Of a stretch of DNA of 64,000 bases, positions 29,307 through 57,318 are shown one piece after another. The notes beneath the pieces were generated by a model, which saw nothing but the letters and a program-made list of their open reading frames with translations, did not search any database and was not told the DNA's origin. A program made the position numbers and the translations under genes. The stretch lies in contig NZ_CP166625.1 of assembly GCF_041320595.1 (NCBI RefSeq), forward strand, positions 1,871,501 through 1,935,500. Reading direction: 5' to 3'. Within the stretch, counting starts at the first letter, position 1. Every line of letters starts with the position of its first letter. Source of the DNA: Pleomorphomonas sp. PLEO. GTDB lineage: Bacteria; Pseudomonadota; Alphaproteobacteria; Rhizobiales; Pleomorphomonadaceae.

Positions 29307-30122
29307 ATGACAGCTTCCCGACTTCCCACCTATTTCATCAGCCATGGTGGTGGCCCATGGCCCTACATGACCGGTGAATTCCGCAGCAATTTCGATGTGC
29401 TGGAGCAGTCGCTCGTCGACATGCGCCATGAGCTCGGCGCAAAGCCGAAGGCCATTTTAGTGGTCACCGGCCATTGGGAAACGCGCGGCTTGGCCATTTC
29501 CTCGGGCGTGAAGCCGGGCATGGTCTACGACTATTACGGCTTCCCCGATTATCTCTACCACATCGCCTACAAGGCGCCCGGCTCGCCGGAGCTGGCGAAC
29601 CGCGTGCGGCAGCTGCTCGGCACGGCCGGCGTCGAGGCGACACTCGACCCGACGCGCGGCTTCGACCACGGCACCTTCTCCATCCTGAAGCCGCTCTATC
29701 CCGACGAGGACGTGCCGGTGGTGCAGCTGTCGCTGGATGCAAACCTCGATCCGGCGCAGCACCTGGCGGTGGGCCGGGCTCTCGCCCCGCTGCGCGATGA
29801 GGGCGTGCTGATCGTCGGCAGCGGCCTCAGCTATCACAACCTCTCGGCCATGCGCGGCACCGGCGGCTACGAGCCGTCGCGCCGCTTCGATGCCTGGCTG
29901 CAGGAAACGCTGCTTCACGAGCCGAGCAAGACGCGCACCGAGCGGCTGATCGGCTGGGAAAAGGCCCCCGCCGCCCGCGCCGCCCATCCGCGCGAAGACC
30001 ACCTGATCCCCCTGATGGTGGTGGTGGGCGCCGCCGAAAGCGAGCCCGGCGCCATCACTTATCACCAGACCGACTTTTTTGGAGGGCTCACCGCCTCCAG
30101 TTTCCGCTTCGGATCCGCCTGA
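29307..30122 (+). CDS. DODA-type (LigB-like) extradiol dioxygenase
   Basis: A 271-residue non-haem metal enzyme of the DODA/YgiD group, which opens catechol-type rings such as DOPA. His13 in FISHGGGP and His56 in VTGHWE are candidate metal ligands. The segment DHGTFSILKPLYP carries the conserved His of the middle region, and REDHLIPLMVVVGA is the C-terminal signature. Its TGA stop lies within the left arm of a family B element. DoxX follows about 200 bp later. Confidence 0.9.
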   Translation: MTASRLPTYFISHGGGPWPYMTGEFRSNFDVLEQSLVDMRHELGAKPKAILVVTGHWETRGLAISSGVKPGMVYDYYGFPDYLYHIAYKAPGSPELANRVRQLLGTAGVEATLDPTRGFDHGTFSILKPLYPDEDVPVVQLSLDANLDPAQHLAVGRALAPLRDEGVLIVGSGLSYHNLSAMRGTGGYEPSRRFDAWLQETLLHEPSKTRTERLIGWEKAPAARAAHPREDHLIPLMVVVGAAESEPGAITYHQTDFFGGLTASSFRFGSA

Positions 30123-30254
30123 GCGGAAATTCTACTGGGGCGGGCATATAGCTTAGTCTTCTGCGCTTCCGGTGCTCACGGACCTGATGTCCGCTCCGCT
30201 CCGGTTCTCGAAGCCGTTGCTCTTTGCCGCGCCCCAGCGAATTTCGGCTCAGGC
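30117..30254 (+). repeat. Family B structured element, copy 1
   Basis: About 138 bp. The outer arms are GCCTGAGC...GCTCAGGC, the second stem CTGGGGCG/CGCCCCAG, and the apical stem GGAC/GTCC. The left arm supplies the TGA stop of the DODA gene. Confidence 0.8.
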
Positions 30255-30317
30255 TCTCACCACCAGCAGCTCTCACCGTCTTAGATTTTGACCGCCTAAC
30301 CACCCTGGAGACCTCCC

Positions 30318-30722
30318 ATGCTTGATACTTCCGTCTGGGGCCCGCGCGCCCTCGCTGTCCTCCGCGTCATCACCGCCCTGTTGTTCCTCGAGCACGCCAC
30401 CATGAAGTTCTTCGCCTTCCCGGCGGGGATGGGAATGGGCGATGGCCCGCTGCCAACGCTGATCGCGGTGGCCGGCGCCATCGAGATCATCGCCTCGCTG
30501 ATGATCATCACCGGCTTGTATGCGCGCATCGCCGCCTTCATCGCCTCGGGCGAAATGGCCATCGCCTATTTCATGGCCCATGCGCCGTCGAGCTTCTGGC
30601 CGGCCATCAACAAGGGTGAATCGGCCATCCTGTTCTGCTTCATCTTCCTGTACATCGCCGCCGCCGGCGCCGGTGCCTGGTCGGCGGATAACGTCCGCGC
30701 CGCCGCCAAAGCCGCCGCCTGA
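30318..30722 (+). CDS. DoxX family membrane protein
   Basis: A 134-residue protein with four membrane helices. ALAVLRVITALLFLEHATMKF at the start and GALLYARIA-like GLYARIAAFIASGEMAIAYF in the middle match DoxX/SURF4-type proteins. The family is linked to thiol redox and quinone-related functions. It follows the dioxygenase, a common pairing. The stop TGA is again part of a family B element. Confidence 0.9.
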   Translation: MLDTSVWGPRALAVLRVITALLFLEHATMKFFAFPAGMGMGDGPLPTLIAVAGAIEIIASLMIITGLYARIAAFIASGEMAIAYFMAHAPSSFWPAINKGESAILFCFIFLYIAAAGAGAWSADNVRAAAKAAA

Positions 30723-30854
30723 CCCGAAACTCTACTGGTGTGGACATCTGGCTTAGTCTTCTGCGCTTGCCGTGCTCACGGACAGGAAGTCCGCTGCGCT
30801 CCGGTTCTCGAAGCCGTCGCCAGCTGCCTCACACCAGCGAATTTCAAGTCAGGC
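30717..30854 (+). repeat. Family B structured element, copy 2
   Basis: 138 bp, the same length as copy 1. The second stem is changed on both sides to CTGGTGTG/CACACCAG, and the inner CTGGC pairs with GCCAG. The TGA of DoxX lies in the left arm. Confidence 0.8.
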
Positions 30855-30881
30855 TCCGCCGACAGCCTTTAGCCACTGACG

Positions 30882-30915
30882 AAAAGGGCGCGACCTTAGG
30901 GGGCCGCGCCCTTTT
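30882..30915 (+). terminator. Intrinsic terminator after DoxX
   Basis: AAAAGGGCGCG pairs with CGCGCCCTTTT across a 12-base loop, giving a perfect 11-bp stem that includes its own U-tract. It can act on either strand. Confidence 0.85.
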
Positions 30916-30962
30916 GTCGTTGGTGGGATCGGGAGATCGATATCGGCCGGGAGTTTCATTCT

Positions 30963-31580
30963 GCCCGAGATCCTCTGCCTCACGCAGAGGAGGACAGTTT
31001 TATATAGAGGGAACAGAGGGATGGCGCGTCGCCCTTCGCCTTGCTCCCGCTGCCATCATGCTGTCCTCCTCTGCGAAGGCAGAGGATCTCGGGACGAGAG
31101 GGCTCGGAGGGGCGTATCAAGTGCCTGAGGTGCTTGGAGCGTTATATCGGCCGGGAGCTTCATTCTGCCTGAGATCCTCTGCCTTCGCAGAGGAGGACAG
31201 TTTTATATAGAGCGGACAGAGGGATAGCGCGTCGCCCGTTGCCTTGCGCCCGCCGCCATCAAGCTGTCCTCCTCTGCGAAGGCAGAGGATCTCGGGACGC
31301 GAGGGCGCGGAGGGGCGTATCGGGCGCCCGAGGTTCCCATCACGCTGTCCTCCTCTGCGAAGGCAGAGGATCTCAGGACGAGAAGATGCTGGGGGATGTA
31401 TCGGGCTCCCGGTGTGCTTTGAGACTTATATCGGCCGGGAGTTTCATTCTGCCTGAGATCCTCTGCCTTCGCAGAGGAGGACAATTTATATAGAGGGGGC
31501 AGAGGGATAGCGCGTCGCCCTTCGCCTTGCGCCCGTTCCCATCACGCTGTCTTCCTCTGCGTGAGGCAGAGGATCTCAGG
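30963..31580. repeat. Family A repeat cluster (seven units)
   Basis: Forward units lie at about 30963, 31168 and 31451. Inverted units lie at about 31060, 31264, 31344 and 31547. Core stems are CCTCTGC/GCAGAGG with loops CTTC, GAAG, CTCAC or GTGAG. Units alternate in orientation, with one doubled inverted unit. The gene-free stretch 30916-31627 holds nothing else. Confidence 0.9.
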
Positions 31581-31627
31581 CAGGAAAGGGCGCTTCGGGA
31601 CATATCGGGCTCCGGGGAGGGCAAGCC

Positions 31628-32521
31628 TCAGCCCCCTCGGATTTCCTCCACCAGCATGGCGACGAAGGCGGTGACTTTGGTGGGGCGGAAGCGGGCGGCT
31701 GGGTAGACGGCGTGGATGCCGCCCGAGGGCAGGGTCCATGCCGGCAGGACGTGGACGAGTCGGCCGGCGGCGATGGGGTCGGCGGCCTGGAAATCGGGCA
31801 GCACCGACAGGCCGCCGCCGACCAGCGTCGCCGCCAGCACGGCGGGTGAGGTGTTGATGGTGACGGCCGGGCGCATGCGGACGGCGCGGCGGTCGAAATC
31901 GCCTTTCGTGAAGTGCCACAGCAGCGGCTCCCGCAGCGCGCCGTTGGCAATGAAGGGCAGGGACGCCAGGGCTTCCGGCTCGTCGGTGGCAATGGTCGCG
32001 GCGATATCGGGCGCGGCGACCAGCAGCTGGCGGAAGGTGCCGATCCGCCTTGCCTGCAGGCTGGAGTCGTCGAGCCAGCCGACCCGGATGGACAGGTCGA
32101 TCTGGTCGGCGAGGAGATCGGTCTTGGCGTCCGACAGCACGAGATCGACGGCGCAGGCGGGAAAGCGCCGGGCGAATTTGGCGGCCAGCGGCGCGATGGT
32201 CGATGTGCCGTAGTCGTTGGGCGCGGCGATGCGCAACAGGCCGGTGGGCTCGGCATTGGCCTCCGCCAGTTCCTCGACGGCGTCCTCCGCCTCGCGCAGG
32301 ATCATGACGCAGCGGGCATGCAACAGGCGACCGGCTTCGGTCGGTGCGACGCGGCGCGTCGTCCGGACCAGGAGGCTCGTCCTGAGTTCGGCTTCCAGCT
32401 TGGCCACCTGCTGGCTGACCACCGTCTTGGTGATGCCCAGGCGATCGGCCGCCTTGGTGAAGGAGCCGGTGTCGACCACGGCGGCGAAGTAGGCGAGGCG
32501 GTTGAGGTTGATGGCTTCCAT
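31628..32521 (-). CDS. LysR family regulator
   Basis: A 297-residue regulator beginning with NRLAYFAAVVDTGSFTKAADR and the HTH recognition part GITKTVVSQQVAKLE. The effector domain follows (LRIAAPNDYGTSTIAPLAAKF). It is divergent from the DsbA-like gene at 32631 across about 110 bp and probably controls the DsbA-MBL pair. Its C-terminus ends just before a family A cluster. Confidence 0.92.
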   Translation of the reverse strand: MEAINLNRLAYFAAVVDTGSFTKAADRLGITKTVVSQQVAKLEAELRTSLLVRTTRRVAPTEAGRLLHARCVMILREAEDAVEELAEANAEPTGLLRIAAPNDYGTSTIAPLAAKFARRFPACAVDLVLSDAKTDLLADQIDLSIRVGWLDDSSLQARRIGTFRQLLVAAPDIAATIATDEPEALASLPFIANGALREPLLWHFTKGDFDRRAVRMRPAVTINTSPAVLAATLVGGGLSVLPDFQAADPIAAGRLVHVLPAWTLPSGGIHAVYPAARFRPTKVTAFVAMLVEEIRGG

Positions 32522-32630
32522 GGCGGCTCGCTCAATTGTGCGTCAATGACATACAGTATGTCAGATTGAGTGCCGTTTATCGATATGGCCGCGTCCGGTA
32601 TTTCTCCGTTCAGACAGTTCGGAGACGACC

Positions 32631-33263
32631 ATGCGGATCACCTATCTTTTCGACCCCCTGTGCGGCTGGTGCTACGGCGCCGGCCCGGCCCTCGAGCGGC
32701 TCGCCGGCCTTGATGGCGTCACGCTGAGCCTGGCGCCGACCGGCCTGTTCGCTGGCGCCGGGGCGCGGCCGATGGAGGCCTCGTTCGCCGCCTATGCCTG
32801 GCAGAACGACCAGCGCATCGCCCGGCTGACCGGCCAGCCGTTTTCCCAGAGCTACCGGCGCCAGGTGCTGGGCGCCAGCGGCGGCCTGTTCGATTCCGCG
32901 CCGGCAACGCTGGGCATCATCGCCGCCGGGCTCGACGATGCCGGCCATGAACTGACCGTGCTGAAGCGCTTGCAGGCCGGCCGCTACCAGGAGGGCCGCG
33001 ACATCGCCGACCGCGCCGTCGTCGCCGACATTCTGGACGAGGCCGGCTTCACCGCCGCCGCCGGCCGGGTGCGCACGCTCGATGCCGGTCTGATCGCCGC
33101 CTACGACCGGCGCACCGCCGCCGCCCGCGCCGACATGCAGCGCTTCGGCTTTGAGGGCGTGCCCTCGCTGGTCATCGACGACGGCGCCGGACGACGCCCG
33201 CTGAGGGGCAGCGCCCTGTTCGGCGGCTTCGACCAACTGACCGCCCAACTGCGGGCCGCCTGA
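32631..33263 (+). CDS. DsbA-like thioredoxin-fold protein
   Basis: A 210-residue cytoplasmic DsbA/FrnE-type oxidoreductase. The active site is CGWC at residues 11-14 (FDPLCGWCYGAGP), and the cis-Pro loop is in FEGVPSLVIDD. There is no signal peptide. It is in one direction with the MBL-fold gene 46 bp downstream and opposite a LysR regulator. The physiological thiol substrate is unknown. Confidence 0.88.
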   Translation: MRITYLFDPLCGWCYGAGPALERLAGLDGVTLSLAPTGLFAGAGARPMEASFAAYAWQNDQRIARLTGQPFSQSYRRQVLGASGGLFDSAPATLGIIAAGLDDAGHELTVLKRLQAGRYQEGRDIADRAVVADILDEAGFTAAAGRVRTLDAGLIAAYDRRTAAARADMQRFGFEGVPSLVIDDGAGRRPLRGSALFGGFDQLTAQLRAA

Positions 33264-33309
33264 CCCGGCCGGTTCCAACCATCCCCCACGACGCTTTTGG
33301 AGATTCCCC

Positions 33310-34206
33310 ATGCTTTCTCGGAGACAGATCATGAAGACCACGCTCGCCCTTGGCGCCGTCGCCACCTTCGCCCCCGCCGGCCTCGGCCATGCCGCCGCGC
33401 CGAAGCTGGCCTTCAAGCATTTCCCGGCCGGCCCCAACGGCTTCTTCCGGGCGCCGGTTCTGGTGACCGGCCCGACGGAAGCGCTGCTGATCGACGGCGG
33501 CTTCAGCTATCCCGATGGCCGCGCCCTGGTGGACGCCATCAAGGCGACCGGCAAGAGGTTGACCACCATCTACATCAGCCAGTCGGACCCCGACTATTAC
33601 TTCTCCCTGAAGCCGATCCACGAGGCGTTCCCGGAGGCCAAGGTGCTGGCCGCTTCCGCCACGCTCGCCGCCATCAAGGGCAACATCGAGGGCAAGCTGG
33701 CCACCTGGGGGCCGATGCTCAAGGAGAACGGTCCGCGGACGCTGGCCGACATCGTGCTGCCGGAAGCCTTCGACGGCCCCAGCCTCAGCGTTGACGGCGA
33801 AACCGTGGAGATCGTCACGCCCAAGGGCCTCGACAACCGCCGCTATCTCTGGGTGCCGTCGCTTCAGGCGGTGTTCGGCGGCGTGCTGGTGTTCTCCGGC
33901 GTGCATGTCTGGACCGCCGATACGCAGGCCAGAGAACAGCGTGCCGCCTGGGTCGCCGCGCTCGACGAGATCGCCGCCCGCAAGCCGGCCGTCGTGGTGG
34001 CCGGGCACATGGTGGCGGATGCACCGACCGACCTCACGGGTGTCACCCACACCAAGGCCTATCTCCTCGCCTTCGATGAAGAGCTGTCCAAGGCCACCGA
34101 CGCCGCCGCGCTGAAGGCGGCCATGGAAGCCCGCTTCCCCGGCCTGGAGATGGGCGTTGCGCTGGACATCGGCTCGAAGGTGGCCAAAGGCGAGATGAAG
34201 TGGTGA
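33310..34206 (+). CDS. MBL-fold hydrolase-like protein, exported, variant metal motif
   Basis: A 298-residue protein with an N-terminal export signal (SRRQIMKTTLALG, ending GLGHAAAP), possibly Tat. The beta-lactamase fold is supported by LLIDGGFSYPDG and the late VVAGHMV. The usual HxHxDH motif reads SQSDPDYY at about residues 97-104. The first His pair is absent while Asp and Tyr remain, as in the DPDYYF subgroup. Metal binding and catalysis are therefore doubtful. The stop overlaps a family B element. Confidence 0.8.
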   Translation: MLSRRQIMKTTLALGAVATFAPAGLGHAAAPKLAFKHFPAGPNGFFRAPVLVTGPTEALLIDGGFSYPDGRALVDAIKATGKRLTTIYISQSDPDYYFSLKPIHEAFPEAKVLAASATLAAIKGNIEGKLATWGPMLKENGPRTLADIVLPEAFDGPSLSVDGETVEIVTPKGLDNRRYLWVPSLQAVFGGVLVFSGVHVWTADTQAREQRAAWVAALDEIAARKPAVVVAGHMVADAPTDLTGVTHTKAYLLAFDEELSKATDAAALKAAMEARFPGLEMGVALDIGSKVAKGEMKW

Positions 34207-34347
34207 GATTGACTGGAAATTCTACTGGGGCGGGCAGCTAGTTTAGAGGCCTGCGCTTCCGGTGCTCACGGACTTGAATGTCCGCTCCGCTCCGGTTCTC
34301 GGCCTCGTCGCTATCTGCCGCACCCCAGCGAATTTCGAGCCAATCTC
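34205..34347 (+). repeat. Family B structured element, copy 3
   Basis: About 143 bp. The outer arms are GAGATTG...CAATCTC, both changed relative to GAGCCTG...CAGGCTC in other copies, so pairing is kept. The apical stem is GGAC/GTCC. It begins at the MBL stop codon. Confidence 0.8.
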
Positions 34348-34371
34348 GTGTCGAGATCTGCATATGCGAAG

Positions 34372-34404
34372 AAAGGGTGCGGCCGAGAAGGCTGCGCCCT
34401 TTTT
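34372..34404 (+). terminator. Intrinsic terminator after MBL gene
   Basis: AAAGGGTGCGGCC pairs with GGCTGCGCCCTTT (two mismatches) over a short loop and is followed by a T-run. Confidence 0.8.
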
Positions 34405-34460
34405 CGTTGCGATGGGTTGGGGCGTCGTTGGAGCGCTATATTGGCCGATCGTTTCATTCT

Positions 34461-34590
34461 GCCTGAGATCCTCTGCCTTCGCAGAGGAGGACAATTTTAT
34501 ATAGAGGGGGCAGAGGGATAGCGCGTCGCCCTTTGCCTTGCGCCGGTTCCCATCACGCTGTCCTCCTCTGCGTAGGCAGAGGATCTCAGG
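34461..34590. repeat. Family A inverted pair
   Basis: A forward unit at 34461-34493 (loop CTTC) and an inverted unit at 34558-34590 (loop GTAG), separated by about 65 bp containing the GCGCGTCGCCCTTTGCC segment. Confidence 0.9.
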
Positions 34591-34618
34591 ACGAGAGGGC
34601 GCGGACGGACGTATCGGG

Positions 34619-34720
34619 CTCCGTGTGAGAGAGACCGATGTCCGCTTGGGCTGCTGTCAGGCCGTGCTGATGTTGGCGGTCACTTCCGCCATGCAGGCCG
34701 ACGCCTGGGTGACGATGCCG
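34619..34720 (-). pseudogene. Fossil of chemoreceptor 3' end
   Basis: CTCCGTGTGAGAGAG leads into CCGCTTGG...GCTGTCAGGCCG and then GATGTTGGCGGTCACTTCCG. The same blocks occur, in the same order, at the 3' end of the intact chemoreceptor near 39225-39480. The terminator and about 100 bp of coding sequence between them are missing here. No open frame remains. Confidence 0.7.
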
Positions 34721-34927
34721 CTCTTTCATCCGCGCCGCGCGCCGTACCACTCCATCCTCACAAGAAAACGGAATCACGCCAACACACTGTTGGAAAGAAC
34801 TTTTTCATTCTAGAGCCAGTTTTTCTAAATAAAAACGGTACTGAAAAAAGTCCAAGAAAAACCAAAAAGCGTATATTTCATAATATTAAACAATGAGAAA
34901 CTATTTACGGTCATCGTATATTTTGTA

Positions 34928-34965
34928 ATCTCGATATATATAAGTATAACTCAAGTAATCGAGAT
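34928..34965. promoter_or_regulatory. AT-rich promoter region with inverted repeat
   Basis: ATCTCGAT (34928-34935) and ATCGAGAT (34958-34965) flank an AT-rich spacer, 29 bp upstream of the Cache-like gene. The whole 34790-34990 stretch is unusually AT-rich and probably contains the promoter. Confidence 0.5.
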
Positions 34966-34993
34966 GCGAAAAAATATCAATAAGGAAACAACG

Positions 34994-35473
34994 ATGAAAC
35001 GTTACGTTCATATCGTATGTGCCACTACAGCCCTTGTTTTTGTCGCGGGGAGCGCTATTGCTGCCGACTATTCTGTGGAAGCGGCCAGCACCAAGGCATA
35101 CTTTGAGAAAGCGCTGCCGGTTTTCAAGCAAATGGGTCCTGAGGCCGCCCTCAAGGACTTCAATACGCCGAAGAAGTGGTACGAGGATCAGTATGGCCTT
35201 CACGTCACCGTGACGCTCAAGGACAGCACCTTGGTAGCCGATAGTGGCTTCCCGGAGCTGGTCGGCATGAAGTGGAACGATGTGGACGATCTCGACGGCA
35301 AGGCCCTTGGGCCGACCGTGCTCAAGGCTGTCGAGAAGTCTCCGGATGGTGTTGCCGTCCAGCTTCGCTTCGCTATTCCCAAGAGCACGCATGCCGGCCA
35401 CGCCGAAGGCTACTGCGCGCTGGTGGATCAAGATCACATCCTGTGCGGCTGGACCGAGGTCGAAGAGCGCTAA
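34994..35473 (+). CDS. Secreted single-Cache-like sensor protein
   Basis: A 159-residue protein with a clear signal peptide (MKRYVHIVCATTALVFVAGS, then AIAADYS). The mature part has the Cache_2-like order: YFEKALPVFKQMGPEAALKDF, KWYEDQYGLHVTVTL, then GFPELVGMKWNDVDDLDGKA. There are no further membrane segments, so it should be free in the periplasm. ATG 34994 follows TAAGGAA. A chemoreceptor gene starts 116 bp downstream on the same strand, so it may pass ligand information to that receptor. That link is inference. Confidence 0.75.
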   Translation: MKRYVHIVCATTALVFVAGSAIAADYSVEAASTKAYFEKALPVFKQMGPEAALKDFNTPKKWYEDQYGLHVTVTLKDSTLVADSGFPELVGMKWNDVDDLDGKALGPTVLKAVEKSPDGVAVQLRFAIPKSTHAGHAEGYCALVDQDHILCGWTEVEER

Positions 35474-35589
35474 TCAACTGAAATAACGTTCTCGACATAC
35501 CCCTGCCTTGCCCGGTTAACCGACTGGCGGCAAGGCAGGATTTCCTCGCACGATTTGTTTTAGCGATCATCCAAAATCAGGGGTAGATC

Positions 35590-37299: not shown

Positions 37300-37423
37300 T
37301 GCGTTGGAAAAGGGGAAGCCGGTTTTCCGAGAATAACAATGCGACAACAAAGCCCTAGGGCAATTTGCGTTCGGCAGGACGCATGTTGCCCTGGAGCTTT
37401 TGAATTTGACATCGGGGAGCCCT

Positions 37424-37690
37424 ATGCCAGCGGCTCGCTCCTTCCTGCCTGAGGCCCTCTGCGTGAGAAAGAGGGTGTCGGGACGAGAGGACGTGGAGGG
37501 ACGTATCGGGCGCCCGAGGTTCCCATCATGCTGTCCTCCTCTGCGTAGGCAGAGGACCTCGGGCCGAAAGAGGCGCCGCCACAAGTATCGGGCTCCGTGT
37601 GAGAGAGCCCCAAACGAAGAGGTCTCAACCTTCTGAGTCGCGCCCAATGTCCGCTTGGGGGGGAGCTGTCAGGCCGCGCGCGTTCGGTTT
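37424..37690. repeat. Family A units plus decayed chemoreceptor end
   Basis: A damaged forward unit (CCTCTGCGTGAGAAAGAGG) and a complete inverted unit near 37529 (loop GTAG) are followed by CTCCGTGTGAGAGAG at about 37593. A degraded terminator and GCTGTCAGGCCGCGCG come next. The last part matches the end of the chemoreceptor at 39298. Confidence 0.75.
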
Positions 37691-37758
37691 CGCCTTCGGC
37701 GCGGGCAGAGCAAGGAGCATGTATTGACAATTGTATGTACATCACTCATGCTTCAAGT

Positions 37759-38362: not shown

Positions 38363-38436
38363 GCCGACCCAAACGAAACAAAGAGGGGCGCAATCGGCAG
38401 ACTTTGCGCTGCCGTTCTTTGCGCCCTCGTGTAGCT

Positions 38437-38530: not shown

Positions 38531-38597
38531 AGCCTAGACTTACGGCGAGCGCCAAGCCGAAGTCGGTTAGGCGGGGCGGGCGTCTTTTCGAGCTGTC

Positions 38598-44541: not shown

Positions 44542-44596
44542 GGGGGCGCTTGGGCGCTCTGGAGCGCACTATCGGCCGGGAGGCGCCCCCATCACG

Positions 44597-44831
44597 CTGT
44601 CCTCCTCTGCGTAGGCAGAGGATATCGGGACGGAAAGGCGCGGAGGGACGTATCAGGCGCCCGTGGTGCTTGGAGCGCTATATCGCCGGGAGCTTCATTC
44701 TGCCTGAGATCCTCTGCCTTCGCAGAGGAGGACAATTTTATATAGAGGGAACAGAGGGATAGCGCGTCGCCCTTCGTCTCGTACCCGCATGCCATCATGC
44801 TGTCCTCCTCTGCGTAGGCAGAGGATCTCAG
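44597..44831. repeat. Family A repeat cluster (three units)
   Basis: An inverted unit at 44597 (loop GTAG), a forward unit at 44702 (loop CTTC) and an inverted unit at 44799 (loop GTAG). The 44542-44883 gap holds nothing else. Confidence 0.9.
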
Positions 44832-44883
44832 GACGAGAAGGCGCGGGGGAAATATAGGGCGACCCCGAGGGGGCTGCGTCGCC

Positions 44884-45138
44884 TCACGCCCGCTTCTTTT
44901 CCAGCCATTCCCTCAGTGCGGTATTGATGCGCGACTGCCAGCCGTCACCGCCAGCGCGGAATTCGGCGATCACGTCGGCATCGAGGCGGATGGTGGTCGA
45001 TACCTTCCGGCTATCGGCTTTCGGCCGGCCGCGCTGCGCCTTGGCGGCGGCGAACTTCTCCTGCCATTCGGGCGTGCTGAGGTCAGGCGCTTCGTCAGGA
45101 TCAAAGCCGGGGGGAATAGGCGGCCTGTTCGCGGTCAT
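44884..45138 (-). CDS. brnA: BrnA family antitoxin
   Basis: An 84-residue antitoxin. The N-terminal PPIPPGFDPDEAPDLSTPEW is the toxin-wrapping part. The C-terminal ribbon-helix-helix reads KVSTTIRLDADVIAEFRAGG and then WQSRINTALREWLEKK. It follows brnT with a 38-bp overlap. It is distinct from the antitoxin at 38015, so this is a second, separate module. Confidence 0.92.
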   Translation of the reverse strand: MTANRPPIPPGFDPDEAPDLSTPEWQEKFAAAKAQRGRPKADSRKVSTTIRLDADVIAEFRAGGDGWQSRINTALREWLEKKRA

Positions 45139-45370
45139 TGGCTTTCCTCAAAGAAATGATGCGGCGGGCCGCGCCGCGCGGGGTCCAGACCATTACCACC
45201 ATGCGCCCATCAAGTCGGCCGATGGTGATGAAGCGCTGTTCTCCATAGTTGAAGCGATCGTCTTCGATCGTCAGCGTGTCGCCCTCGAACACCCGTTCGG
45301 CCTCCGTGAGGTCGATGTGATGTTTTGCCAGATTGGTGACACGCTTGGTGGGGTCGAATTCGATCGACAT
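45101..45370 (-). CDS. brnT: BrnT family toxin
   Basis: An 89-residue toxin starting MSIEFDPTKRVTNLAKHHIDL, with YGEQRFITIGRLDGRMVVMVW and the diagnostic RRIISLRKANDRE. ATG 45370 gives the family-standard N-terminus; the frame extends 13 residues upstream through a palindrome. No Shine-Dalgarno sequence is visible: the five bases before the ATG lead straight into a 17-bp inverted repeat. Translation may therefore depend on operator or leader structure. Confidence 0.93.
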   Translation of the reverse strand: MSIEFDPTKRVTNLAKHHIDLTEAERVFEGDTLTIEDDRFNYGEQRFITIGRLDGRMVVMVWTPRGAARRIISLRKANDREQAAYSPRL

Positions 45371-45375
45371 AGAAA

Positions 45376-45425
45376 TTTTGTTACTACAAAAAATGATGAC
45401 GCACAACATTTTTGTAGTAACAAAA
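45376..45425. promoter_or_regulatory. 17-bp perfect inverted repeat at brnT promoter
   Basis: TTTTGTTACTACAAAAA at 45376-45392 and its exact complement at 45409-45425, with a 16-base spacer. It ends five bases before the brnT ATG. This is a probable BrnA operator, or a leader hairpin that hides the start. Confidence 0.8.
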
Positions 45426-45472
45426 AATAGGAATGCCGCAGCGGCTCACTATCGGCCGGGAGATCCATTCTG

Positions 45473-46075
45473 CCTGAGATCCTCTGCCTTCGCAGAGGAG
45501 GACAGCTTTATATAGAGGGAACAGAGGGATAGCGCGCCGCCCTTCGTCTTGCGCACGCTGCCATCATTCTGTCCTCCTCTGCGTGAGGCAGAGGATCTCG
45601 GGACGAGAGGGCACGGAGGGACGTATCAGGCGCCCGAGGCCGCCATCATTCTGTCCTCCTCTGCGAAGGCAGAGGATCTCAGGACGAGAGGGCGCGGAGG
45701 GGTGTATCGGGCGCCCGAGGTGGTTGGAGCGTTATATCGGCCGGGAGCTTCATTCTGCCTGAGATCCTCTGCCTTCGCAGAGGAGGACAGCTTTATATAG
45801 AGCGGACAGAGGGATAGCGCGTCGCCCTTCGCCTTGCTCCCGCTCCCATCAAGCTGTCCTCCTCTGCGTGAGAAAGAGGATCTCGGGACGAGAGGGCGCG
45901 GAGAGGCGTATCAGGCGCCCGTGGTCCCCATCACGCTGTCCTCCTCTGCGAAGGCAGAGGATCTCAGGACGAGAAGGCGCGGGGGGACGTATCAGGCACC
46001 CACGTGTTTGGAGCGCTATATGGGCCGCGAGCTTCATTCTGCCTGAGATCCTCTGCCTTCGCAGAGGAGGACAAT
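45473..46075. repeat. Family A repeat cluster
   Basis: Alternating forward and inverted units fill the whole gap between the brnT promoter and the thioredoxin-like gene. Forward units include those beginning 45473 and near 46043; one inverted unit near 45854 is damaged (GTGAGAAAGAGG). No gene is seen. Confidence 0.9.
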
Positions 46076-47607: not shown

Positions 47608-47608
47608 T

Positions 47609-49631: not shown

Positions 49632-49767
49632 GAGCCTGACCCGAAACTCACCTGGGGCGGGCATCTAGCTTCGACTTCCGCGCTTGCCGTGCTCACGGAC
49701 AGAAGGTCCGCCCGTTTCTCGAACTCATCGCCATCTGCCTCGCCCCAGCGCGTTTCAGATCGGGCTC
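49632..49767 (+). repeat. Family B structured element, copy 4
   Basis: 136 bp. The outer arms are GAGCCTGACCCGAAAC and GTTTCAGATCGGGCTC, the second stem CTGGGGCG/CGCCCCAG, and the apical stem GGAC/GTCC. It starts one base after the acr3 stop and ends 15 bp before the next gene. Confidence 0.8.
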
Positions 49768-49782
49768 TAACGAAGGCTGACC

Positions 49783-50610
49783 ATGGACGTCGTGATCTAC
49801 CACAACCCCGGCTGTGGCACCTCTCGCAATGTGCTGGCGCTGATCCGCCACGCCGGCATCGAGCCGCACGTGATCGACTACCAGATGTGCCCGCCGAGCC
49901 TGGACCTGCTGGCCCAGCTGATCGGCCGCATGGACATGGCGGTGCGCGACGTGCTCAGGGTGAAGGGCACCCCCTATGACGCGCTGGAGCTGGGCGACCC
50001 CAAGCTGACCGACAGCCAATTGCTCGACGCCATGATGGCCCACCCCATCCTGATCAACCGGCCGATCGTGGTGAGCCCGCTCGGCGTTGCGCTGTGCCGG
50101 CCCTCCGACATGGTGCTGGACCTGTTGCCCGACGCGCCGATGGCCGATTTTACCAAAGACGACGGCGAGATCTGCCTGCGCGACCGGGAGATCGCCGCCG
50201 ATGACGCGGGGCTCATCGCCGCGCTGGAGGCCGAGCGGCTGCCGACCGACGACCTTTCCGAACCCGGCCGGCGCTTTTATGCCTATTTCACGCTGTCGGG
50301 CCAGATCGTCGGCTATGCCGGCCGCGAGCTGTTCGGCGGCGACGGATTCCTGCGCTCGCTGGTGGTGCTGCCGGCGGCGCGCGACCGCAACATCGGCAAG
50401 GCGATCGTCGCCCGGCTGGCCCGCCGCGCCTTCGACGAGGGTGGGCGGCGGCTGTGGCTGATGACCACCTGGGCGACCGGCTTCTTCGAGGCGATCGGTT
50501 TTGAGAAGGTGGAGCGCGCCGACACGGTGCCGGCCATCCTCGATACCCGCCAGGCAAGGGGGCTGTGCCCCTCGTCGGCGGTGATCCTGTCGCGGGGGAT
50601 CAGGCTGTAG
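49783..50610 (+). CDS. arsC: Glutaredoxin-type arsenate reductase fused to ArsN2-like acetyltransferase
   Basis: A 275-residue two-domain protein. Residues 1-125 form a glutaredoxin-coupled ArsC (YHNPGCGTSRN with catalytic Cys11; INRPIVVSPLGVALCRPSD). Residues of about 145-270 form a GNAT acetyltransferase of the ArsN2 kind (LRSLVVLPAARDRNIGKAIV as the acetyl-CoA loop, LWLMTTWATGFFEAIGFEKV). ArsN proteins acetylate organoarsenicals. The locus thus has two unrelated arsenate reductases. A family B element lies between this gene and acr3. Confidence 0.9.
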   Translation: MDVVIYHNPGCGTSRNVLALIRHAGIEPHVIDYQMCPPSLDLLAQLIGRMDMAVRDVLRVKGTPYDALELGDPKLTDSQLLDAMMAHPILINRPIVVSPLGVALCRPSDMVLDLLPDAPMADFTKDDGEICLRDREIAADDAGLIAALEAERLPTDDLSEPGRRFYAYFTLSGQIVGYAGRELFGGDGFLRSLVVLPAARDRNIGKAIVARLARRAFDEGGRRLWLMTTWATGFFEAIGFEKVERADTVPAILDTRQARGLCPSSAVILSRGIRL

Positions 50611-50633
50611 GGGCGATGGGGGAGCGTTATATT

Positions 50634-52190
50634 GGCCGATCGTCATATTCTGCCTGAGGTCCTCTGCCTGCGCAGAGGATGACAGGTAAATTATATAAAT
50701 GAAACAGTTGGATAGAGGTTAGAGATTGCTGCCATCCTGCTGTCATCCTCTCCCATCAAGCCGTCCTCCCGCTCCCATAACGCTGTCCTCCTCTGCGAAG
50801 GCAGAGGATCTCGGGACGAGAGGGCGCGAAAGGACGTATCAGGCGCCCGAGGTGCTTTGAGCCCCATATCGGCCGATCGTTTCATTCTGCCTGAGATCCT
50901 CTGCCTTCGCAGAGGAGGACAGATTTATATATAGGGAACAGAGGGATAGCGCGCCGCCCTTCGCCCTTCGCCGTTCGCCCTTCGCCGTTCGCCCATCGCC
51001 TTGCTCCCGCTCCCATAACGCTGTCCTCCTCTGCGAAGGCAGAGGATCTCGGGACGAGAGGGCGCGAAAGGACGTATCGGGCACCCGAGGCGCTTGGAGC
51101 GTTATATTGGCCGATCGTTTCATTCTGCCTGAGATCCTCTGCCTCCGCAGAGGAGGACAGATTTATATAGAGGGAACAGAAGGATAGTGCGTCGCCCTTC
51201 GCCCTTCGCCGTTCGCCCATCGCCTTGCTCCCGCTCCCATAACGCTGTCCTCCTCTGCGAAGGCAGAGGATCTCGGGACGAGAGGGCGCGAAAGGACGTA
51301 TCAGGCGCCCAAGGTGCTTTGAGCCTCATATCGGCCGATCGTTTCATTCTGCCTGAGATCCTCTGCCTTCGCAGAGGAGGACAATTTTATATATAGGGAA
51401 CAGAGGGATAGCGCGCCGCCCTTCGCCGTTCGCCCTTCGCCCTTCGCCGTTCGCCCATCGCCTTGCTCCCGCTCCCATAACGCTGTCCTCCTCTGCGAAG
51501 GCAGAGGATCTCGGGACGAGAGGGCGCGGAGGGACGTATCGGGCACCCGAGGCGCTTGGAGCGTTATATTGGCCGATCGTTTCATTCTGCCTGAGATCCT
51601 CTGCCTCCGCAGAGGAGGACAAATTTATATAGAGGGAACAGAAGGATAGTGCGTCGCCCTTCGCCCTTCGCCCTTCGCCCTTCGCCTTGCTCCCGCTCCC
51701 ATAACGCTGTCCTCCTCTGCGAAGGCAGAGGATCTCGGGACGAGAGGGCGCGAAAGGACGTATCAGGCGCCCAAGGTGCTTTGAGCCTCATATCGGCCGA
51801 TCGTTTCATTCTGCCTGAGATCCTCTGCCTTCGCAGAGGAGGACAGCTTTATATATAGGGAACAGGGGGATAGCGCGTCGCCCTTCGCCGTTCGCCGTTC
51901 GCCCTTCGCCCTTCGCCCTTCGCCCATCGCCTTGCTCCCGCTCCCATAACGCTGTCCTCCTCTGCGAAGGCAGAGGATCTCGGGACGAGAGGGCGCGGAG
52001 GGACGTATCGGGCACCCGAGGCGCTTGGAGCGTTATATTGGCCGATCGTTTCATTCTGCCTGAGATCCTCTGCCTCCGCAGAGGAGGACAGATTTATATA
52101 GAGGGAACAGAAGGATAGTGCGTCGCCCTTCGCCCTTCGCCCTTCGCCCTTCGCCCTTCACCTTGCTCCCGCTCCCATCAAGCTGTCCTC
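50634..52190. repeat. Family A higher-order array with nested heptamer minisatellite
   Basis: GGCCGATCGT-type landmarks occur at 50634, 50871, 51109, 51333, 51571, 51795 and 52040. Spacings after the first are 238, 224, 238, 224 and 245. Each unit has one forward and one inverted family A hairpin separated by heptamers GCC(C/G)TTC or GCCCATC. The heptamer counts 6, 4, 6, 4 and 7 account exactly for the length differences (196 + 7n). The two unit subtypes alternate, giving a 462-bp higher-order period. No gene is present. Confidence 0.92.
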
Positions 52191-52221
52191 CACTGCTTGG
52201 CCGCCGCGCCGGGGAATGGCG

Positions 52222-52247
52222 AAGGGCCACTCTTGCGAGCGGCCCTT
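52222..52247 (-). terminator. Probable terminator hairpin of the MFS gene
   Basis: AAGGGCC-A-CTC pairs with GAG-C-GGCCCTT over loop TTGC, with one internal mismatch. It lies about 115 bp past the MFS stop on its strand. Confidence 0.5.
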
Positions 52248-52361
52248 CCCGGTCTGGTTCGCGGGGCGACGGCATCCTGGAGGAAGACAGGATTTTCCAG
52301 GACGCCGGGGCCTTTTTCAACCAACGCCTGACGCAAGACGGGACAGTCTGCCGGGGTTGGC

Positions 52362-53642
52362 TTAGCGGACCGACCGGATCATGGCGATCATGGCGACGCC
52401 GATGAGGGCGACGACGGCGACCGTGGGGAAGATCATCTGATAGCCGATGGCCGAGATCGCGATGGCCGCGATGGCCGGGCCGAGGATCTGCCCGCCGGTG
52501 TTGGCCAGGTTGAGCACGCCGAGATCCTTGGCCGCCGTTTCGGCGTTGGGCAGCACCTCGACGTTGAGCGCCTGATCGACCGAGTTGAAGATGCCGCTGC
52601 CGATACCGGCGATCAGCGCGTAGACCAGCATGGTCCACGGCTGGGTGGAGAAGAACGGCACCAGCGCGCCGATGGCAACCAACAGGCCGGCCAGAGCCAC
52701 CGGCCCCTTCCTGCGACCCAACTTGTCGGAGATCGGGCCTGCCACCAGGGCCATGCCCAGCGCCGTCACCATCAGGATGATCGAGATCAGCTCGATCTGG
52801 TGGCCGACCTCGTCCTGCGTGACCTTGAGATAGTCGGTGAGGATGAACAGCTGATAGCCCTGGATGGCGAAGGTTGCCGTGGTGATCATCAGCTTGCCGA
52901 ACAGGGCAAGGTAGTAATCACGGGCGTTGCGGCGGGGAATGCTGAAGTTGTCCAGGACCATGTCGCGGTTGAGGACACGCCTCGGCATCGACTGGCTGGA
53001 TGCCTCGCGCATGATCAGCGCGGCGAGCGGCCCGGAGAGCAGGATCAGCACCGCCATGGAGACAAAGCCGGTCGAGAGATCGCCGAGGAAGCGGGCATTG
53101 ATGAACTGTCCGCCGTAGATGCCGAGCGTGAAGCCGAAGGCATAGATCGACGAGATCGTGCCGCGATGGGCCGGGGCGATCCGGTCGGAGATCACCGCCA
53201 GCAACGGGGCGACGATGGCGTTCAGGAACACCTGGAAAATGCACCACTCGACGAGCAGCATGGTGACGCTTTCCGCCCTGCCCATGAGGATGAGCATGGC
53301 CGCCGAGCCGACGGAACCGGCGATCAGCCAGGGCGTACGGCGACCGAGACGCGAGCGCGTCAGGTCGGAGAGGGCGCCGATCAGGATGTTGGCGACCGTG
53401 GCGACGACCATGGCCGAGATCGACAGCATGGCAATGATGTTGGCCTTGTTGCCGGGATCGATGATGGCAACGCGGCCCGGCAGCAGCACGGTGGCGGTGC
53501 CGAAGTAGGGGCCGAGCCAGAGCAGCACGCCGGCGCACAGCGCAATGCCGAGGCGATAGGGGATTTGCGGTTGTTCGGCATCGCTGATGGAGGCCGACCA
53601 GGCGGCGACAGACTCGCTCTGTCGGGACGAAACAAGGGTCAT
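52362..53642 (-). CDS. MFS transporter (sugar/glycoside-type)
   Basis: A 426-residue transporter with twelve helices from ATG 53642 (GGAG eight bases upstream). The motif A loops read GALSDLTRSRLGRRTPW and GPISDKLGRRKGP, and the central loop is long. It resembles the SLC45/glycoside-type MFS proteins. It lies directly downstream of the GH3 glycosidase on the same strand, so a beta-glucoside or its product is a reasonable substrate. A family B element separates the two genes. Confidence 0.88.
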   Translation of the reverse strand: MTLVSSRQSESVAAWSASISDAEQPQIPYRLGIALCAGVLLWLGPYFGTATVLLPGRVAIIDPGNKANIIAMLSISAMVVATVANILIGALSDLTRSRLGRRTPWLIAGSVGSAAMLILMGRAESVTMLLVEWCIFQVFLNAIVAPLLAVISDRIAPAHRGTISSIYAFGFTLGIYGGQFINARFLGDLSTGFVSMAVLILLSGPLAALIMREASSQSMPRRVLNRDMVLDNFSIPRRNARDYYLALFGKLMITTATFAIQGYQLFILTDYLKVTQDEVGHQIELISIILMVTALGMALVAGPISDKLGRRKGPVALAGLLVAIGALVPFFSTQPWTMLVYALIAGIGSGIFNSVDQALNVEVLPNAETAAKDLGVLNLANTGGQILGPAIAAIAISAIGYQMIFPTVAVVALIGVAMIAMIRSVR

Positions 53643-53684
53643 GGGAAAACTCCGAAGGGGATCAACCACGCCGTCGGGCTCTGA

Positions 53685-53826
53685 GAGCCTGACCCGAAAC
53701 TCTACTGGGGCGGGCATCTAGCTTCGAATTCTGCGCTTCCGGTGCTCACGAACCTCAAGTTCGCTCCGCTCCGGTTCTCAAATCCATCGCTATCTGCCGC
53801 ACCCCAGCGAATTTCGAGTCAGGCTC
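53685..53826 (-). repeat. Family B structured element, copy 5
   Basis: 142 bp. The outer arms are GAGCCTGAC...GTCAGGCTC. The apical stem is GAAC/GTTC, changed on both sides from GGAC/GTCC. It lies 47 bp past the GH3 stop. Confidence 0.82.
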
Positions 53827-53873
53827 TACGGCCCGGCGGCGGGAAAAGCCAAGGCGCTCGTGGCGAGCTCGAA

Positions 53874-56120
53874 CTAGTTGCCGGCGACCTTGACGGTGGT
53901 TGACAGGCGATCGGGATCGCCCCAGCAGGCGGCGGCCTCGATTGAGACCAAACCAGCGGCGACGCGGATGCGGCGGGTGGCGCCATCCCACCGGCCGAGC
54001 GGCAACAGAGAGGCCGTTACTTCCACCGTCTTGCGTTCCCCGGCGGCGAGTTCGACCACGGCAAAGCCCAGCAGCTCGCGCTCGTCCGCCCGGTCGCCGT
54101 CGCGGCGCGAACCGTAGATCTGCACCACGTGGTGGCCGGCCCTGGCGCCGGTGTTGGCGACGCTGACGCCGACCCGGACGCCGTCACGGCCCAAGGGCTC
54201 GACGGTCATGTCGGCGAGCCGGTAGCTCGCGTAAGACAGGCCAAAACCGAGCGGGAATTCGGCTTCAACGCCGTTTTTCACCATCAGCCGATGGCTGTAC
54301 CAGTGGTCGTAGGTGATGGCCTTGGCGTCCCGGTCGAAGAAGGGCGTATCCTTGGCATCGGCGGGAATGGGGTAGGGCAGGCGGCCGCTGGGGTTGCGTT
54401 TGCCGAACAGGATGTCGGCCAGCGCGTGGCCGCCTTCCATGCCGGCGTACCAGCCGAGCAGGATAGCTGGCACCAGATCCTTCCAGTCGTGGACGATGAC
54501 GGCGCCGGCCGTTTCGATGACCACGATGGTGCGGGGATTGGCGGCGGCGACGGCCTTGATGAGGGCGACATCCTCGGCCAGCAGTTCCAGGGAGAGACGG
54601 TCGCCACCGGCCTTGCCGCCGCCGACCACGCTGGTGCCGCCGCCGAGCGCGGCGAGCACCTTGGCGCGCTGGCGCCGTTCCTCGTCGGTCCGGGCATCGG
54701 GATAAAGCGCCAGAAGATCGGCGCGGCTGGCCACCGAGCCATCGACGAACTCGCCCTCGTCGGCCGAGGTGTAGCCGACGACGACGACGGCCGCGTCCGA
54801 AGTGGCGGCCAGCGCGGCGGCCATGGCGACATCGCCGCTGGCGTCGGAATTGACGAGAACGCCGGAGCCGGCGAGCGCCTGGGTGAGACCGGCGAGCGGG
54901 GTGACGACATAGGGCGCGCGCACCGACGACGAGCCGAGATCGCCGGTGTTGGCGGTGTCGCACAGCCGGCCGACGACGGCCAGCGAGGCGAGCTTGGCCG
55001 GGTTGAGCGGCAACAGCGGTCTGCCGGCCACCTTTTCATTGCGGAGCAGCACCATGGAGCGGCCGGCAACCTCGCGGGCCAGGGCGACGTGCTCGACCGA
55101 AGCGACCACCGATGCGGCCGGCTCGGCTTGCTCGCGCTCGGCGTAGAAGCGCAACTGGGTTTTCAGGATGCGCAAGGCCGCGCGTTCGACATCGGCCCAG
55201 CCGCACTTGCCGGCGTCAAGGTCGGCCCGCAGACGCTCGCCGCGCTGCTGGCGCATCGGCGCCTCGACATCCAGCCCGGCGACGAGGGCCTTGCCGCCGT
55301 CGCGCATGCCCCAGATGAAGTCGGTGATGACGAAACCCTGGAAGTGCCAGGTGTCGCGCAGGGTGTTGGTCAGCAGGTTGGCATTCTGGCCGGACCAGGT
55401 GCCGTTGACCGAGTTGTAAGAACTCATCACCGCGAAGGCGCCTTCGTCGATGACGCGCTTGAAATGCGGCAGGAACGTTTCCTGGAGGTCGGCCTCGTCG
55501 ATGGTGACATCAACCGAGAAGCGGGCGTTTTCCATGCTGTTGAGCGCGAAGTGCTTGGCGCAGGCCATGGCATGGTGCTGGATGCCGCGCGTCAGCGCCG
55601 CGCCCATTTCACCCAGGATCACCGGCTGGTCGGAATAGGTTTCCTGCACCCGGCCCCAGGCCGGATGGCGCGGCAGGTTGATGCAGACGCCGCCGAAGAA
55701 ATTGGCGCCGAGGGCGCGGATTTCCTGGCCGATGGCCGTGCCAACCTTTTCCTCGAGCCCGACATCCCACGTGGCGCCGCGCGCCATGGAAACGGGAAAG
55801 CAGGTGGAGTGGCCGAGAACCGAGCCGCGCGGCCCGTCGGCAAAGCGCACGCCGGGCACGCCCAGCCGGTCCACCGCGCCCATGACGTAGGGGTAGATGT
55901 TGTAGCCGTCCTCAACCAGACTCAGCATGCCTTCCCAGAAAGGCTGGTCGCCGTCCAGCAGCCCGAGGCGTTCGGAAACGGTCATCTTGGCGTAAAGGGC
56001 CTGCGCCTCGGATTGGGGATCGGCGCCTTTGCGAACCCGGTCGACGGCTTGGGTGAAGGTTTTGGGCGCCGGCGACGCAGCGTCGGGCGCCGCCTCCGTG
56101 TGGGGGCGGTGTAAGGTCAT
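53874..56120 (-). CDS. Glycoside hydrolase family 3 (beta-glucosidase-like)
   Basis: A 748-residue enzyme. The GH3 N-terminal barrel contains GVRFADGPRGS, the substrate-binding KH pair at 189-190 (CAKHFALNS), and the nucleophile Asp267 in GFVITDF. The C-terminal sandwich (about 370-610) and a fibronectin-type end domain (LGFGLSYASY, VSVANTGARAGHHVVQIY) follow. There is no signal peptide, so it is cytoplasmic. ATG 56120 follows GGGAGGA. It is divergent from a TetR gene, with a symmetric operator between them. The likely substrate is a beta-glucoside taken up by the adjacent MFS protein. Confidence 0.92.
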   Translation of the reverse strand: MTLHRPHTEAAPDAASPAPKTFTQAVDRVRKGADPQSEAQALYAKMTVSERLGLLDGDQPFWEGMLSLVEDGYNIYPYVMGAVDRLGVPGVRFADGPRGSVLGHSTCFPVSMARGATWDVGLEEKVGTAIGQEIRALGANFFGGVCINLPRHPAWGRVQETYSDQPVILGEMGAALTRGIQHHAMACAKHFALNSMENARFSVDVTIDEADLQETFLPHFKRVIDEGAFAVMSSYNSVNGTWSGQNANLLTNTLRDTWHFQGFVITDFIWGMRDGGKALVAGLDVEAPMRQQRGERLRADLDAGKCGWADVERAALRILKTQLRFYAEREQAEPAASVVASVEHVALAREVAGRSMVLLRNEKVAGRPLLPLNPAKLASLAVVGRLCDTANTGDLGSSSVRAPYVVTPLAGLTQALAGSGVLVNSDASGDVAMAAALAATSDAAVVVVGYTSADEGEFVDGSVASRADLLALYPDARTDEERRQRAKVLAALGGGTSVVGGGKAGGDRLSLELLAEDVALIKAVAAANPRTIVVIETAGAVIVHDWKDLVPAILLGWYAGMEGGHALADILFGKRNPSGRLPYPIPADAKDTPFFDRDAKAITYDHWYSHRLMVKNGVEAEFPLGFGLSYASYRLADMTVEPLGRDGVRVGVSVANTGARAGHHVVQIYGSRRDGDRADERELLGFAVVELAAGERKTVEVTASLLPLGRWDGATRRIRVAAGLVSIEAAACWGDPDRLSTTVKVAGN

Positions 56121-56150
56121 TCTGGTCCTCCCTCGAAAACTCAATGTGCC

Positions 56151-56179
56151 TTACTTAATACATACTAGGTATTCTGTAA
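56151..56179. promoter_or_regulatory. Symmetric operator between GH3 and TetR genes
   Basis: AATAC-N7-GTATT (56157-56173) is nested within TTAC...GTAA (56151-56179), all sharing one centre at 56165. It lies 31 bp upstream of the GH3 start and 55 bp upstream of the TetR start. Confidence 0.7.
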
Positions 56180-56233
56180 AGCCGGGATGCGACGGTCGCA
56201 GGCCCGAAAAGATGTGCTATAAGAAGGCCATCC

Positions 56234-56911
56234 GTGAATTTACGAGGAGAGTTGATTCCCTTGTCCCGCGACCTCTCACCACCGCCCCGGCTCACCCGCG
56301 AGCGCAAATCGGCCGACGAGCGCCGCGCGCAGATCATCGAGGCGGCGACCCAGCTGATTGCCGAGCGTGGCTTCTGGGGCGTGACCTTGCGGGATGCCGC
56401 CGTGTTGTGCGGGATCACCGAGGCGGGGGTTCTGCATCACTTCCAGAACAAGGCGCGGCTGTTGATCGCGGTGCTGGAATATCGCGACGAGGCCGACTTT
56501 CAGGCGCTGGCCAAACTGTTGGGGCTGAGCCGGGCGGATATCGATCTCGACCCGCTGCCCGCCAGCCTGCGCCAGCTGTGCACCGCGCTGATCACCCGCA
56601 ATGTCGCCCAGCCGGAAATCGTGCGGCTGTACAGCGTGCTCAACGCCGAAGCGCTGGAGCCCACCCACCCCGCCTACGCCTATTTCCAACAGCGGGAAGA
56701 CATGGCCTTGTCGCTGTTTGCAAGGTCGTTGCGGGACGTGGACAATGCCGACCACGTGGCGCGGCAGGTTCTGGCGGTGATGGATGGGCTGCAACTGCGC
56801 TGGCTGCGCAAGCCGGACCGGATCGATCTTCTGGAGGAGTGGGACAGCCTGTTCGAGCGTGCCTTCGCGCACCTCGGGCCGCAGGGCGGAGATTCGCCCC
56901 CGGCGGGCTGA
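56234..56911 (+). CDS. TetR family regulator of the glycoside locus
   Basis: A 225-residue repressor. The HTH (about 28-75) reads RAQIIEAATQLIAERGFWGVT, then LRDAAVLCGITEAGVLHHF. The C-terminal domain is of the kind found beside glycosidase genes. GTG 56234 has AAGAAGG eight bases upstream. A TTG at 56261 preceded by GAGGAGAG is an alternative start and would remove nine residues. The gene-free stretch 56912-57178 shows nothing recognisable. Confidence 0.88.
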   Translation: MNLRGELIPLSRDLSPPPRLTRERKSADERRAQIIEAATQLIAERGFWGVTLRDAAVLCGITEAGVLHHFQNKARLLIAVLEYRDEADFQALAKLLGLSRADIDLDPLPASLRQLCTALITRNVAQPEIVRLYSVLNAEALEPTHPAYAYFQQREDMALSLFARSLRDVDNADHVARQVLAVMDGLQLRWLRKPDRIDLLEEWDSLFERAFAHLGPQGGDSPPAG

Positions 56912-57178
56912 CGATCGGCGCGGGGCGCTTGTTTCCCGCGATCCGGACAAAGGCAGCGCAAGGCGCGTCGCGCGGCGCCGCCGGGCACAACCATCTTGCC
57001 TTGGCGCCCGCTTTGGCGTATCTGGCGGCTATCGCGCAAAGCGATCGCTTCCCTTGATCCGCCCATTGGCGGAGTAAACAGGTGGACGAATTATCGTCCA
57101 GGCGGTCATGCACAAGCGATCAGCGCCGCTTAGCGCCGGTCGACCAGCGATTTTCCTGACCTAACCGCCTGAACCACC

Positions 57179-57318
57179 GAGCCTGACCCGAACTCACTGG
57201 GGCGGGCATCTAGCTTCGAATTCCGCGCTTGCCGTGCTGACGAACTTACGTTCGCTCCGCTCCGGTCCTCGCGTTCATCGCTAGCTGCCTAGCCACCCGC
57301 GAATTTCAAGCCAGGCTC
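57179..57318 (+). repeat. Family B structured element, copy 6
   Basis: 140 bp. The outer arms are GAGCCTGAC...GCCAGGCTC, the inner CTAGC/GCTAG pair is perfect, and the apical stem is CGAAC/GTTCG. The lower CTGGGGCG stem is eroded on the right side. It is not adjacent to a stop codon and is the most diverged copy. Confidence 0.75.

Follow-up and report, generated by a model that had tools for sequence, protein, structure and literature searches.

A structured repeat that abuts stop codons in Pleomorphomonas shares its apical core with elements across Alphaproteobacteria

The repeat described here abuts stop codons, mostly in such an orientation that the strand folding better is the template strand of the gene, and its apical core is shared with elements across Alphaproteobacteria, where it lies inside arms that are different in sequence and still paired. 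This strand, called S hereafter, is the reverse complement of the strand read, and the mismatches in its stems are G-U rather than A-C. According to the explanation that we judge best, and whose chances of being right and wrong we regard as roughly balanced, each copy is the insertion of a non-autonomous mobile hairpin of about 142 bp, which needs the folded single strand S for its mobility.

The starting point was a preliminary description of the window, i.e. the whole 64,000-nucleotide stretch of Pleomorphomonas sp. PLEO DNA that was analyzed, in which six copies had been pointed out together with base changes that keep their stems paired. All six were found in the sequence at the positions it gave (Table 1; borders set by covariance-model search), and the changes were found as named: the outer arm GAGATTG/CAATCTC of copy 3, the paired change CTGGTGTG/CACACCAG of copy 2, the apical GAAC/GTTC of copies 5 and 6, and CTGGC/GCCAG in copy 2 as against CTAGC/GCTAG in copy 6. 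As RNA, copy 5 folds with a z-score of -5.6, none of 200 shuffles being as low, and in the aligned columns it is identical to its counterpart at this site in another genome (G012; L412).

Table 1. Positions and surroundings of the six copies, and of the apical core of copy 5, in the window
Feature	Position	Strand	Surroundings or sequence	Better-folding strand
Copy 1	30115..30256	+	At the end of LigB-family gene, stop codon 30120-30122	minus
Copy 2	30715..30856	+	At the end of DoxX-family gene, stop codon 30720-30722	minus
Copy 3	34205..34347	+	At the end of metallo-beta-lactamase-fold gene, stop codon 34204-34206	minus
Copy 4	49632..49767	+	SBF-family (Acr3-like) gene (stop codon 49629-49631) on one side, ArsC-family gene on the other	minus
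Copy 5	53685..53826	+	Flanked by two minus-strand genes (MFS; glycosyl hydrolase family 3); no abutting stop codon	
Copy 6	57179..57318	+	Intergenic; nearest predicted upstream gene 267 bp away	
Apical core of copy 5	53736..53779	+	CTTCCGGTGCTCACG ... CGCTCCGCTCCGGTTCTC; portion common to other genera	

The size of the family was examined with a covariance model (R1) built from 27 copies, a search of the genome and its relatives that the preliminary description had proposed. R1 gave 81 matches in the host genome, and removal of 26 opposite-strand matches of the same places left 55 distinct places, the weakest of which may be fragments. At E 1e-5 and under strict filters that drop weak matches, 13 of the 14 genomes of the genus were matched, compared with none of six genomes from other genera of the family and three of 40 genomes from other families of the order. 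The core, by contrast, belongs to a class-wide family. A BLAST search with the core hit 17 plasmid records at E 1e-5 (Sphingobium, Agrobacterium, Bosea, Mesorhizobium, and others) and 34 at E 0.01, the weakest of which may be chance matches, and no autonomous element was found among these plasmid copies. The phage search for the core returned no copies; separately, one 51-kb contig of a viral collection carries a window-type copy (L127, 2113-2135). The exact core pattern occurs in at least 119 stretches of named genomes, and a core model (R2) matches 28 of 385 genomes of the class, host included, which is a floor because ten candidates were scored per genome. Twenty-six of 398 genomes of the phylum match R2, four of them lying outside the class with marginal scores; ten core-like matches, also of marginal scores, were noted in one genome outside Alphaproteobacteria (G509).

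The class-wide loci that we fetched range in GC content from 34 to 71%, and two layouts are common, the window type, about 142 bp long in Pleomorphomonas, and the Mesorhizobium type, whose outer arms vary from locus to locus with pairing retained. Two Mesorhizobium copies (L198 and L200) have an insertion in common, which lies close to the inner helix on the 3' side of the stem. The copy sets used below are the own copies of the host genome; copies of relatives, either 80 that represent the best search matches listed or an overlapping set of 28 loci, a few of which are from other families of the order; 82 copies from named genomes, found by the exact core pattern; and 28 class-wide copies.

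Covariation was examined in other genera, in an alignment of 41 Mesorhizobium-type copies taken on the reverse strand. Paired cells make up 95.7% of it, 30 of the 50 pairs have changed on both sides, and double-change cells number 165 against 44.7 after shuffling, with none of 500 shuffles as high. Pairing drops to 30-38% when the partners are slid, a comparison that favors the unslid structure, which had been derived by folding this very alignment. No variation is possible at the 12 core pairs, since an exact core pattern served to find the copies. The pairing and the double changes rule out chance or artefact. Structure maintained by paired changes is seen whether copies, genera or orthologous sites are compared, and the arms therefore do not merely reflect recent terminal inverted repeats. 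That part of the preliminary description which read the changes as a maintained structure thus stands, and its choice of strand has to be reversed, because the reverse complement folds better in all four copy sets.

This preference for S was found by several measures. The folding energy is lower on S in 43 of 50 own copies, 27 of 28 copies of relatives, 28 of 28 class-wide copies and 79 of 82 named copies, with a gap of 9-14 kcal/mol of which dinucleotide shuffles explain 3-4. The excess over such shuffles amounts to 5.2-10.1 kcal/mol and is positive in 45/50, 28/28, 24/28 and 77/82 copies of these sets, respectively, and alignment folding of four alignments also favors S. When only Watson-Crick matches were used to define pairs, the mismatches counted on S were 204 G-U and 68 A-C in the genus (24 columns to 9), and 145 and 53 in the Mesorhizobium type (26 columns to 5). 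Such an asymmetry points to a folded strand of RNA or single-stranded DNA, since a cruciform or plain palindrome would be symmetric. The mRNA-sense strand as a functional RNA was dropped as a candidate, because the folding energies favor S.

The position relative to genes is the second regularity. An ORF stop was found at the 5' border only, as against the 3' border only, in 26:9 of 55 own copies, 46:10 of 80 copies of relatives, 49:3 of 82 named copies and 15:3 of 28 class-wide copies, and at both borders in 2, 11, 14 and 5 copies, respectively; these counts accept any reading frame that stays open over 100 codons (80 for class-wide copies), and some antisense stops are spurious. In the complete genome G500 a predicted stop is no more than 3 nt away from 11 of the 13 copies; our gene caller was home-made and trained on the window, and it missed genes. 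Of the 82 named copies, 73 have an upstream gene that reads toward the element, and for these 73 the distance from stop to core is 48-52 nt in 46 cases and 36-59 nt in 66. Named copies in tandem contexts run with the gene in 40 cases and against it in two.

The stop codon itself takes part in the pairing of the Mesorhizobium type. Among 59 such copies the complementarity begins abruptly at one alignment column, where 39 are paired against 21.5 after shuffling, compared with 20 against 16.7 one column further out, and within the coding sequence no pairing above chance was found. The stop codon fits the alignment exactly in 21 of the 59 copies and within one column in 33. In the 21 exact fits pairing begins with the second stop-codon base, which is paired with the far arm in 18 copies (12.1 shuffled), as is the third base in 19 (10.4 shuffled), whereas the first base is paired in seven (7.0 shuffled). 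The last two bases covary with the far arm, as AG/CT eight times, AA/TT five times and GA/TC four times. The elements may form an old, class-wide mobile family of structured single strands, of ssDNA or RNA, whose insertion is directed exactly to stop codons, always in one orientation, and takes the last two stop-codon bases into the terminal helix; we put this forward as a tentative proposal that is rather unlikely to hold. We know of no bacterial element with a targeting mode that places stop-codon bases of the host in a terminal helix.

Evidence for mobility was obtained from the ends and the flanks. Intact copies of the genus have terminal inverted repeats, GAG...CTC, and identical 3-bp flanks, all of the form TNA, occur at 11 of the 31 intact copies among the 55 own places, the shuffled mean being 3.5 and none of 5000 shuffles as high; identical 4-bp flanks occur at none of the 31. 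Among relatives, 17 of the 62 intact copies (of 80) have identical 3-bp flanks, 16 of them TNA, where 5.0 are expected. None of the six window copies has such a 3-bp repeat, and their insertion scars have therefore decayed or are different; likewise, no convincing direct repeat was found for the Mesorhizobium-type variant. Behind acr3 the element is present in four of 14 genomes (G000, which is the host, G002, G010 and G011), while nine have a short spacer and then the next gene and one reaches the contig end. Behind ligB it is present in one of six close orthologues, that of the host only, and the empty site of G012 has GGCTC, a possible remnant. Since orthologous sites are found with and without the element, we consider it MITE-like and mobile. 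The preliminary description has to be corrected in this respect, because in this genus the repeat, besides being structured, has the ends and the 3-bp target repeats of such an insertion.

The search for an enzyme or a parent gave the following. The seven DUF4096-type IS copies of the host genome, which are IS427-like, were ruled out as parents by their different ends, and when 38 fetched transposase loci, a part of all transposase matches, were scanned for matching ends, only one weak, dissimilar pair came up; a parent may exist elsewhere. A Y1 transposase is present in five of 24 genomes tested and had no match in the host genome, which rules out a RAYT-driven REP. Reverse transcriptases occur in seven of the 24 genomes, the host among them, a distribution too patchy to speak for or against a retro route.

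A bias toward one chromosome strand exists besides the gene-linked one. Of the 55 places in the host genome, 51 fall in the segment from 0.54 to 3.53 Mb, about 55% of the chromosome, and the rest has only four copies. Forty-four of these 51 places are on the plus strand, the sampled GC skew of the region is mostly positive, and gene orientation there is mixed, the tandem contexts being 16:1 for plus genes and 9:5 for minus genes (Fisher p 0.067). Orientation in the host thus also tracks the chromosome strand, so that the gene effect is not clean in this genome. Among relatives, pairs of copies on the same contig agree in strand 21 to 1; in G500 the GC skew is weak. This second bias is probably linked to replication.

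For the mobile hairpin, these findings suggest the following course. The genus variant would be moved in trans by a DDE-type transposase, and folded single-stranded S, as ssDNA or RNA, would be the recognized intermediate, which could be why the S fold is conserved while the arms drift. Either targeting or later loss would leave S on the strand that is absent from mRNA, and in the host genome S would be left probably off the lagging-strand template.

Change at orthologous sites is important in weighing this explanation against others. Thirteen of 20 flank clusters were used (three were too different, two identical and two within one genome). Pairing survived all 17 double changes seen in these clusters of orthologues, where simulation gave 1.3 that kept and 1.4 that broke it; under a second definition of pairs 18 kept and seven broke it. 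The structure is therefore still being remade at sites that do not move, whether through selection, gene conversion or template switching, and such change suggests a role in place or gene conversion, not mobility alone. At the orthologous sites alone, mismatches on S are G-U in 17 cases and A-C in 12, and in view of this weak asymmetry we place the strand-specific constraint mainly in the spread of the element.

A role in place would be served if S were a structured non-coding RNA, either antisense to the 3' end of the upstream gene or part of the 3' UTR of a convergent gene, with dispersal only secondary. The strand-specific pairing and the paired change at orthologous sites agree with such an RNA, as do purine-rich internal loops conserved in the S core, where the core was fixed by the search pattern, and the clustering of Bradyrhizobium antisense transcription start sites near ORF ends that is reported in passages of PMC5082802. 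Against it, the ratio at orthologous sites is only 17:12, presence is patchy between close genomes, and tandem contexts put S nearly always antisense with no evident driver. A scan for sigma-70-type sites, the only type scanned, also found no promoter-like site near any of the six window copies, a slight argument against independent transcription of an S RNA. We hold a host RNA to be rather unlikely, though it is the main rival, and the fit to the stop codon together with the strand rule makes it possible to test an antisense RNA directly against a mobile hairpin of single-stranded nucleic acid.

The covariation might also have arisen from gene conversion between copies or from template switching at hairpins, in place of selection on the fold. 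High copy number would favor this, and the orthologues L415 and L464 differ in blocks that cover both arms. Neither process is expected to give a strand asymmetry, however; pairing ends at the second stop-codon base and does not continue into the coding sequence, and the differences between L473 and L478, one double and one single change, all lie in the stem. This origin of the covariation appears quite unlikely to us. A REP-like element of the 3' UTR that acts in the mRNA sense, as stabilizer, attenuator or terminator, is least probable of all: it would suit the position at the stop codon, the sense orientation to the gene and the T run that follows the stem on the gene strand in two class-wide copies (L284 and L288) in the manner of an intrinsic terminator, but the mRNA-sense strand folds worse, copies occur within apparent operons such as acr3-arsC, and none of the six window copies has a T run directly behind it, the terminator-like site at 30898-30913, about 40 bp past copy 2, being a separate hairpin.

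Comparison with known systems places the mobile hairpin close to several of them. Integron attC sites are imperfect palindromes behind stop codons, with fixed orientation and one folded strand active. By analogy, our element may be likened to them in being palindromic, oriented, located behind stop codons and favored on one strand, whereas its outermost bases are not conserved between variants and its copies are dispersed, not in arrays. GAG...CTC ends and 3-bp TNA target repeats are traits of the IS1031 group of the IS5 family. The Pleomorphomonas element resembles MITEs of this group in both, but it has no parent IS among those examined, its fold is strand-specific, its core is shared by variants without conserved ends, and it is oriented to stop codons. 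Three nucleotides at the insertion site are described as common in the IS1031 group in a portion of PMC2516522. REPs, those of E. coli and Br-REP1 and Br-REP2 of Bradyrhizobium, are likewise dispersed palindromes in 3' UTRs, as far as extracts of PMC5082802 describe the latter, and those of E. coli can sit near stop codons. The element is unlike them in being about 140 nt long and in differing from the Br-REP consensus given in those extracts, and also in that the host genome has no Y1 transposase match and that the strand which folds better serves as the gene's template.

The CIR repeats known from Caulobacter and Brucella (Chen and Shapiro 2003, as related in PMC2229807) are likewise intergenic, structured and longer than 100 bp in Alphaproteobacteria; they have two arms and a linker, unpaired ends and a conserved GANTC. 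Our element has ends that pair, and it is this description, not sequence, that sets it apart from CIR. A conserved GANTC methylation site was found neither in own copies (19 of 55, against 21.8 in shuffles) nor in relatives (15 of 80, against 31), while GANTC is present in 60 of the 82 named copies.

The preliminary description had also placed the element in no known family, and we can agree: there was no Rfam match in the window at the gathering score, and of 12 weak matches in five loci, with E values up to 10, none overlaps the element, which rules out a known RNA family. Core strings retrieved no paper on bacterial repeats, and among the papers listed on alphaproteobacterial palindromic repeats at stop codons or on Pleomorphomonas repeats, a literature from which most subscription papers were outside our scope, none was seen to describe the element. 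A family of such breadth and strong covariation that has no Rfam entry means that an unnamed element lies in many alphaproteobacterial 3' regions. The family may also be relevant to the intergenic repeats left aside in rhizobial sRNA screens (PMC2573895).

Other repeats were observed along with the element. A second hairpin of about 50 bp (GGGCATCCGCTTGGCCCGAAAAGTCTGCAACTTTTCGGGCGGATGCC or close) is nested at one fixed place in some copies, namely four own copies (G000:C1 1496921, 1555794, 1804221 and 2285431) and also L135, L159 and L331. The TNA flanks are still identical in two of these four own composites, and the G002 copy behind acr3 has the nested hairpin, which its three orthologues do not. 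The window also contains a more abundant second repeat, built on CCTCTGCCTTCGCAGAGGAGGACA, at 20241-20763, 30918-31580, 34416-34651, 44561-46074 and 50607-52228, which partly forms tandem arrays whose units are spaced 216 to 245 bp apart.
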